DNA from: Punctularia strigosozonata HHB-11173 SS5
Taxonomy: Eukaryota; Basidiomycota; Agaricomycetes; Corticiales; Punctulariaceae
Direction: 5' to 3'
NCBI RefSeq assembly: GCF_000264995.1
Contig: NW_006767454.1
Span: 1 to 64,000, forward strand
Length of the DNA: 64,000 nt
Part shown: positions 38,758 through 40,929 of the stretch, one piece after another
How the letters are laid out: each line of letters opens with the position of its first letter
How positions within the stretch are numbered: position 1 is the stretch's first letter
The notes under the pieces: model-generated
Database searches by the model: none
Told to the model about the DNA's origin: nothing
Seen by the model: the letters and a program-made list of their open reading frames with translations, nothing else
Position numbers and translations under genes: made by a program

Positions 38758-40929
38758 TTACTGGTTCCTACACTCGGGCTCGGCTCCGCCCATCCCGTCC
38801 TCGTCCTCCTCGTCCTCCTCGTCCTCGTCCACCCAGTCCTCCTCGTCCCCCCCGTCGCCGAACTGTCCCGGATAGCCGCCATAACCATGCGGGTGGCTTG
38901 AGAAAAAGTCGGAACCGGCTGGGAAGGAACGGCCACGCACATCGGCAAGCTCCGTCTGCTCGTACTCGGCCTCGTCCACCACCGCCGGCCGCGGCTCCAG
39001 CTCCGTCTTCTTGGGCGGCAGCAGCCCCGCGAGCGCCTGTCCGTTCATCGTGAGTTTCAATTCCGTGTGCAGTCAAGAGAACCGTTCGATGAGCGAGAAT
39101 AAACGCATGCAATAAGCGCTCCGATCTCTTCTCACTCAGGGGAAAAAAAAAAGAAAACGCACCTCGCGATCGACCCTCGCCAGCCACTCCGGACCCGGCA
39201 TCTCGATCTCGAGCACGACGAACAGGTCGCCCTTCAACTCGGGGTGCTTGAACGTCGGCATGCCCTCGCCCCGGAGCACGATCGTCTCGTTCGGCCGGAC
39301 GACCGTCCCCGGCGGGGACGCCACCCGGATCCCGCGCCCGTCGAGGTGCGTGAGCAGGATGCGCGAGAACCCGAGGAGCGCCTCGGACAGCGTGATCTTC
39401 ACGCGCGCGAGCAGGTCCTTGCCCGAGCGCTCGAACGCCGCGTGCGGCTCCGTCCGCAGGGCGAAGATGACGTCGCCCGGCGGGACGCCCGGCTGTGTGT
39501 TTTTTGCGTGAATTCAGAAAATTCGGGATGGGGTGTCGCGTCGTTTATAATAAGACGTTTGGAGGAAATTGGAAGAGGGGGGGGGGGAAAGAGGGGGACT
39601 CGGTCTGGTGATATGTGCCGTACCTGCTGATCGCCGGCGCCGGCGAGAACTATCCGGTGTCGATCGGGCATGCCCCGTTCGATCTGGATCTCCTGCCGCG
39701 TCTTCTCCTTCACGGTCTTCTCGCCCTTGCACTTCTTACATCTGTATGTATGTATATGTATCAGCGATGTCGTCCCGTGAGAGAGGCACACCGAGCGACA
39801 AAAAAAAAAATCCTCACCTTTCCTTCTCGCGTATCTTCTCGCCCTCGCCGTGGCACTCCGAGCACGCCGCCCGCATCGTCGCCATCTGCCTCGGGCCAAC
39901 CTATACGATAACGCGCTCGTCAGCTCACATGAGGAATGGGGCGGCGGGCGGCAGCGATCGCGCACCTGAGTGTGGATATACGTCCATCCCTTGCCCTCGC
40001 ACTTGGCGCACTTTTTCGGCTTCGCGTTCCCCTTCGCGCCCGACCTAAACGACACAAAAAAAAAGGCCATCGCCGGGATAAATCAAAAAACGGAGCGAGC
40101 GTTTTTCGCACACAAGTTCAGAGAGAGAGAGAGACCGCGAGAACGCACCCGTGGCACACCCCGCACACGACCTCCTTCTCCATGTTCATCTTCACCGACT
40201 TGCCGTTGTACAGGTCCTCGAGCGTGACCGAGTACGGGATCGTCGTGTCCTCGCCCTTCCGCCGCCTCGGCCCGCCGGAGGAGGAGCCAAAGTCGAACCC
40301 GAAGTGCATCCCGGGGCCGCCGCCACCGCCGCCGCCGCCGCCGAAAAAGGTCGCGAAGATGTCGTCCATGTCCATGCCGCCTCCGCCTCCTCCCCCGCCG
40401 CGCGCCATGCCCTCCATGCCGTACATGTCGTACGCTTCTCGTGACTGGGGATCGCTGAGGATTTCGTAGCTGTTACACGCGAAGAGGGGGGGGGGCGTTA
40501 AGATGCCTGTGTAGAATACGCGAGGCGTGACGTACGCGGCCGCCATCTCCTGGAACTTCTGGCTTGCGTTCGGGTCATCCGGATTCTGGAAGGATAGATG
40601 TCATTCTTATACTCTTCACGAGGGGGCAAAAATGGGTGCACGAGCCTTGTCCTATAGAAGCGAACGCGACGTTGAGCAGCGAAAACGACGATTCATGAGA
40701 AGAAACGCACAGGATGGTGCTTCATAGCCTGAGCGCGGATCCATCAGATTCGGAGCACACGAAATCCGGGGACTGCAACCAACACACCTTGTTCCGGTAC
40801 GCCTTCCTGATCTCCGCTACCAGATATCAGCTCGAGCGCCACACAGAGTAGTCCGTACGAGAACCGACTTGCCTTCCGTAGCCGTGACGGACACGCCCAG
40901 AAGCTCATACAGCTCGGTTTCCACCGGCA
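38758..40929 (-). CDS. YDJ1: Type I DnaJ/Hsp40 chaperone, Ydj1-like
   Basis: Co-chaperone of cytosolic Hsp70. The J domain reads [53 protein letters not shown] and EILSDPQSREAYDMYGMEGM. A Gly-rich linker follows, then four CxxCxGxG zinc motifs (CGVCHGSG, CAKCEGKG, CSECHGEG, CKKCKGEK), the substrate domain (LAGAGDQQPGVPPGDVIFAL, LDGRGIRVASPPG, HPELKGDLFVVLEIEMP) and an acidic tail. The last four residues are CRNQ, a CaaX-like farnesylation box. The start is uncertain: the first clear exon begins TG CCG GTG after an AG acceptor at 40929, so the ATG may be split by an intron (A|TG). Asp-Lys of the HPD loop come from a 6-nt microexon. Confidence 0.88.
40646..40651 (-). other. 6-nt microexon coding Asp-Lys of the DnaJ HPD motif
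   Basis: The exon ending CACCATCCT (HHP) stops at 40711 before GTGCGT, and the exon starting AATCCGGAT (NPDDP) begins at 40585. Direct joining would give HHPNPDDP, without the invariant Asp. Between them lies CTATAG, then GACAAG (Asp-Lys), then GCTCGT. Using it gives [10 protein letters not shown], exactly the family sequence, with introns of 59 and 60 nt, both phase 0. The second intron then has a GC donor. Inference from splice geometry and family sequence. Confidence 0.7.

Follow-up and report, generated by a model that had tools for sequence, protein, structure and literature searches.

A six-nucleotide exon probably supplies the aspartate of the HPD motif in a class A J-domain protein gene of Punctularia strigosozonata

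On the minus strand of the window analysed here, a 64,000-nucleotide stretch of the P. strigosozonata genome, the aspartate of the HPD motif of a class A J-domain protein appears to be encoded by an exon of only six nucleotides, GACAAG (exon 5, positions 40646..40651, Asp-Lys, phase 0). The exon emerges from the sequence itself, from a self-trained gene finder and from a leave-one-out splice model, and we put the probability that it is a genuine and mostly constitutive microexon of this gene at about 0.92. Both its inclusion in the mature mRNA and its constitutive use are what we infer from these lines of evidence.

The minus strand carries the layout HHP/DK/NPDDP in full (slashes mark exon borders, which were set by script). 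Exon 4 (40711..40728, 18 nt; placed by the exon join and the gene finder) is likewise a microexon; it encodes AMKHHP through the codons GCT ATG AAG CAC CAT CCT and ends with base 40711. It is followed by intron 4 (40652..40710, 59 nt), a GT-AG intron (GTGCGT...TATAG) that splits HHP from DK and whose donor dinucleotide occupies 40710-40709. On the other side of GACAAG, intron 5 (40586..40645, 60 nt) is a GC-AG intron (AAG/GCTCGT...TCCAG) lying in phase 0 after HPDK, and exon 6 (40536..40585, 50 nt; placed by the exon join) opens at 40585 with AAT CCG GAT GAC CCG and reads NPDDPN at its start. We counted as microexons those internal exons of at most 30 nt that are bounded by an acceptor AG and a GT or GC donor, and GACAAG is one of them (TATAG/GACAAG/GCTCGT). 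Every element that the original prediction had described, namely HHP, the GT donor, TATAG/GACAAG/GCTCGT, the introns of 59 and 60 nt and NPDDP, was recovered on the minus strand. The prediction had left the strand unnamed, and the positions it gave for donors and acceptors refer to the adjoining exon bases.

The whole gene model (38758..40988, minus strand) comprises 12 exons, which join, with the microexon among them, into a stop-free protein of 456 amino acids; the assignment is based on Pfam and on the best PDB match. Pfam recognises DnaJ (94.1 bits), DnaJ_CXXCXGXG (51.7 bits) and DnaJ_C (118.1 bits) in the whole protein. The HPD motif exists in the J domain only with the microexon: with Asp-Lys the isolated domain reaches 99.2 bits, and without it 84.6 bits. 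The zinc repeats read CGVCHGSG, CAKCEGKG, CSECHGEG and CKKCKGEK, the fourth being degenerate. With a J domain containing HPD, four CxxCxGxG-type repeats and a C-terminal domain, the protein is, as judged from its sequence, a class A (DNAJA/Ydj1-like) J-domain protein; the finer identity 'Xdj1-like' is a guess. Among solved structures, human DNAJA2 (7zhs; 304 bits) matches best, and HPDKNP aligns to it residue for residue. The protein shares its J domain, zinc-finger repeats and C-terminal domain with human DNAJA2 and yeast Ydj1/Mas5 and is itself ordinary; it is unlike them in that two exons, the smaller measuring 6 nt, together make up HPD-K. In the 33.6-Mb assembly, no close second copy of the gene was found, and the best match outside the locus, on C8, has 41% identity over residues 89-325 (153 bits). 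The gene at this match (L025) is one that we take to be Ydj1-like.

Exons 2-6 form a chain of short exons of 57, 29, 18, 6 and 50 nt. Exon 2 (40873..40929; placed by the exon join and a comparison of start models) begins with the TG of a split ATG, and exon 3 (40788..40816; placed by the exon join) encodes (A)EIRKAYRNK. Between them lies intron 2 (40817..40872, 56 nt), a second GC-AG intron (GAAG/GCAAGT), whose GC donor is required by the reading frame. Exon 2 has no in-frame ATG ahead of an upstream stop. When single-intron start models were enumerated, the split start CAACA/TG CCG GTG scored 4.60 nats versus 0.05 for the runner-up, and the start codon is probably split, A/TG, by intron 1 (40930..40983, 54 nt), the intron of this best model. 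The donor of intron 1, GTCGGT, is weak (4.8th percentile). At the other end of the gene, 78 nt of the last exon (38940-38863, minus strand; GTGCGT...GGACAG, stop-free in frame) could be an in-frame intron, which leaves the C-terminal length of the protein uncertain. Outside the gene, the window contains a run of 501 N at 36253-36753, probably a scaffold gap.

The gene finder was trained on the window, on five 10-kb stretches of the genome and on 20 short stretches around J-domain genes. It learned from ORFs and splice signals, with no protein homology, and combined codon statistics with profiles of donors, branch points and acceptors and with the length of the introns. The median intron length was 58 nt (175 clean introns with 50 nt or more of exon on either side). 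By itself, the gene finder put the exon GACAAG between introns of 59 and 60 nt. Its errors in this gene were a wrong start and frame, a GT at 40868 taken for intron 2 and intron 6 read as coding; elsewhere, an 18-nt exon that it predicted in the J-domain gene L037 was wrong on inspection.

Splice sites were ranked among the 170 clean introns of a leave-one-out model. This model excluded the gene, and its branch-point profile was fitted anew with the full profile as the starting point. On this scale, the donor, branch point and acceptor of intron 4 lie at the 50th, 55th and 86th percentiles. The acceptor of intron 5 lies at the 70th percentile and its donor, if read as GT, at the 75th; its branch-point score is low (17th percentile). 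Intron 5 conforms to a U2-type GC-AG intron, with G at +5 and T at +6 fitting the sample profile and an uncommon T at +3 that is found in 7% of donors. Splicing at this GC donor is possibly inefficient.

GC donors were predicted by the gene finder in 7 of 240 introns, one being intron 5 and the other six lying in other genes. Control dinucleotides given the same penalty were called once in 240 introns (GA) or not at all (GG, CT, AT and TT, 0 of 241 each). The GC donor expected on the 3' side of the microexon is present, and predicted GC donors outnumber the control dinucleotides in the genome, where, according to the model, they seem to be used at roughly 2-3%. The GC donor of intron 2, which the gene finder passed over, has a context that ranks with the best donors when its GC is scored as GT. 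A survey puts the share of GT-AG introns in fungi at 98.7% (PMC7072748), and several GC-AG introns are described in Ganoderma MYB genes (PMC7407476).

Twenty J-domain loci were extracted from the genome, 16 of them with a predicted HPD gene and four (L032, L034, L043 and L044) without a predicted gene. An intron inside the motif or right after HPD-K/R occurs in 4 of the 16 (L037, L040, L029 and L033), all verified on the DNA. It interrupts the Asp codon of HPD in L037 (G000:C15:514800-516400; GA/C, CATCCCGA/gtgagt...tag/CAAG) and the His codon in L040 (G000:C4:893800-895600; CA/C). In L029 and L033 it is a phase-0 intron right after HPD-K/R, which is the position of intron 5, and its donor is GT in both. 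The position of intron 3, before an A-[LM]-K-type sequence, also recurs: L026 has an intron at the identical place and phase, and L025, L035 and L041 have one there or no more than about a codon away. A GACAAG-type microexon is absent from all 16 modelled paralogues of this genome, each of which has HPD. Short exons are predicted widely, with 18 of 190 predicted internal exons no longer than 30 nt; three of these belong to the DnaJ gene at 38758..40988, and some of the others are false. Those backed by J-domain sequence measure 22 nt in L033 (NPDNPDA), 26 nt in L027 (AYEVLSDPE) and 28 nt in L039 (KAYQVLSDP). L040 also has a predicted 10-nt microexon (GTGGACCAAG, W-T-K) before EDHEIFDL, a context that is probably conserved in such proteins.

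The consequences of failed splicing differ between the possible outcomes. Retention of intron 4 leads to an early stop (HHPVRFFS-stop), as does retention of intron 5 (HHPDKARAPIFAPS-stop). Since the length of GACAAG is divisible by three, the skipped form stays open: direct joining of the outer sites yields an in-frame HHPNPDDP, with Asn in the place of the catalytic Asp. The contact of DnaJ D35 with DnaK R167 has been described as critical to the stimulation of ATP hydrolysis, and DnaJ D35N is known to compensate DnaK R167A (PMC13012618). The expectation that skipping would produce a dead J domain is therefore reasonable.

It is a further step to propose that the microexon is included in a regulated way, in response to stress for instance, and that the skipped HPN form is a deliberate Hsp70-uncoupled chaperone. 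Skipping leaves the frame and all other domains intact, the skipped HHPNPDDP resembles DnaJ D35N (PMC13012618), the Xlr2 microexon of Trichoderma offers a precedent (PMC11121469), and the GC donor could serve as a tuning point. A failure at intron 5, however, may equally result in retention, DKARAPIFAPS-stop, or in use of the GT four bases downstream, which makes a 10-nt, out-of-frame exon. Moreover, many other sampled genes have predicted GC donors and predicted short exons, so that neither feature marks a switch. We consider such regulation very unlikely. The same low probability attaches to the specific version in which the GC donor would cause partial inclusion, giving an Hsp70-stimulating HPD protein together with an in-frame, Hsp70-uncoupled HPN holdase in a ratio that shifts with heat or other stress.

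Alternatively, the interval between exons 4 and 6 might be a single intron of 125 nt, in which case GACAAG would never be spliced in and the gene would encode a J-like protein with HPN. The outer sites would be adequate for this (donor at the 50th and acceptor at the 70th percentile), and introns of 104-131 nt are found in the same gene. In the leave-one-out model, however, the two-intron parse scores 0.83 and the single intron -2.69, a difference of 3.5 nats in favour of two introns at a GC penalty of 4.5 nats. The single intron would also cost the J domain 14.6 bits. Across the 125-nt gap, no other in-frame exon between 3 and 45 nt long scored as high as GACAAG (leave-one-out). Within this set, exons encoding DKAR and DKARAPIF (GC donors GCACCC and GCCCCC) scored below DK, as did AR and ARAPIF exons starting from the next AG; a 10-nt exon using the GT four bases downstream is out of frame. 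When the gene's further introns of 104, 131 and 126 nt were searched in the same manner, no hidden microexon beat the single intron in any of them (the frame check was rough for the 104-nt intron, which is not in phase 0).

A single intron would further require the presence of Asp-Lys with fitting splice dinucleotides at the very spot where they are missing to be due to chance. When the 125-nt interval was dinucleotide-shuffled 100,000 times, an AG, an Asp-Lys or Asp-Arg microexon and a GT or GC donor, with 40 nt or more to either side, arose in 26 of the shuffles, and in 13 when GT was required (the real donor being GC). Under a looser pattern, which accepted any in-frame exon of 3-30 nt that began with Asp and contained no stop, the count was 1239 of 100,000. 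In the window itself, AG-D[K/R]-G[T/C] occurs six times in 128,000 positions on both strands (twice with GT), or about 0.002 per 40-position slot. Of 3000 shuffles that preserved the ends of the interval, 69 held a microexon that outscored the single intron; the observed 3.5-nat difference was reached in five, none of which had an exon starting with Asp. A search of the genome that skipped simple repeats returned no second match of the 125-nt gap, and an introner-like origin was rejected. We judge the single intron to be highly improbable. The proposal that a 6-nt microexon restores HPDKNPDDP is upheld by the completeness of the gene, the Pfam score, the homology-free splice model and two chance controls.

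Least probable of all is an assembly or base error, with GC a miscalled GT, or a decaying gene or pseudogene: a T at one base would give an ordinary GT donor and the window has an N run elsewhere (36253-36753), but every other exon is open, the domains are recognisable and the gene finder places six GC donors in other genes of the sample. The microexon would stand even if the C of the GC donor were an error.

Taking GACAAG as a constitutive microexon, its splicing can be rationalized by intron definition, which is general in fungi with short introns. Introns 4 and 5, at 59 and 60 nt near the 58-nt median, would each be recognised in this way and removed one after the other, joining HHP-DK-NPDDP and completing HPD. 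U1 and the acceptor-binding factors would then never share the 6-nt exon. As to its origin, the microexon probably arose when the intron between HHP and DK was gained two codons before an intron position after HPD-K/R, the position that is common to two other J-domain genes of the genome (L029 and L033).

Exons of comparable size have been described in other fungi. In the P450 genes of the white-rot basidiomycete Phanerochaete chrysosporium, microexons encode 2-10 amino acids, the shortest exon measures 6 bp, microexons occur in nearly a third of the genes of the family and introns of 45-55 bp are frequent (PMC1184071). GACAAG matches the smallest of these, a 6-bp exon for two amino acids, and differs in carrying a single catalytic residue and in its GC donor, neither of which is mentioned in the portion of that account cited here (PMC1184071). 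In Fusarium CYP621A, an exon of one nucleotide completes the PKG motif, as supported by orthologues and RNA reads; it was found because direct joining failed, the clue being an intron more than twice the median length (PMC12940212). The two cases are alike in that a tiny exon is needed to complete a conserved motif. The Fusarium exon, however, is from an ascomycete, is 1 nt long, has a GT donor and breaks the frame when omitted, whereas GACAAG is 6 nt long, frame-neutral, followed by a GC donor and predicted from sequence (PMC12940212). Xlr2 of Trichoderma virens contains a 20-nt microexon whose glucose dependence was shown by RNA; its authors found no reads in which exon 1 was spliced to exon 3, so this is not simple skipping (PMC11121469). 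Like GACAAG, the Xlr2 exon is a microexon that contributes to a functional domain in a filamentous fungus, and it is unlike GACAAG, at 6 nt and read from the genome only, in its length and in the RNA evidence for its regulation (PMC11121469). The cited part of PMC3990503 gives no figure for how common very short exons are, and a literature search at the level of titles and listings found no paper linking a microexon with the HPD motif. Given the precedents in P. chrysosporium, Fusarium and Trichoderma, GACAAG joins a known kind of tiny fungal exon. Other fungal genes have already yielded exons of this size, and the particular feature here is that the Asp of HPD is encoded in such an exon.

An annotation that joins only the visible exons of this gene would yield a J protein without the invariant Asp, easily mistaken for a natural 'dead' J protein. 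Where a catalytic residue appears to be lost beside an intron of double length, a hidden microexon and a GC donor should be checked for first. As a small, naturally occurring test case, the locus also lends itself to asking how intron definition handles an exon of 6 nt behind a GC donor.
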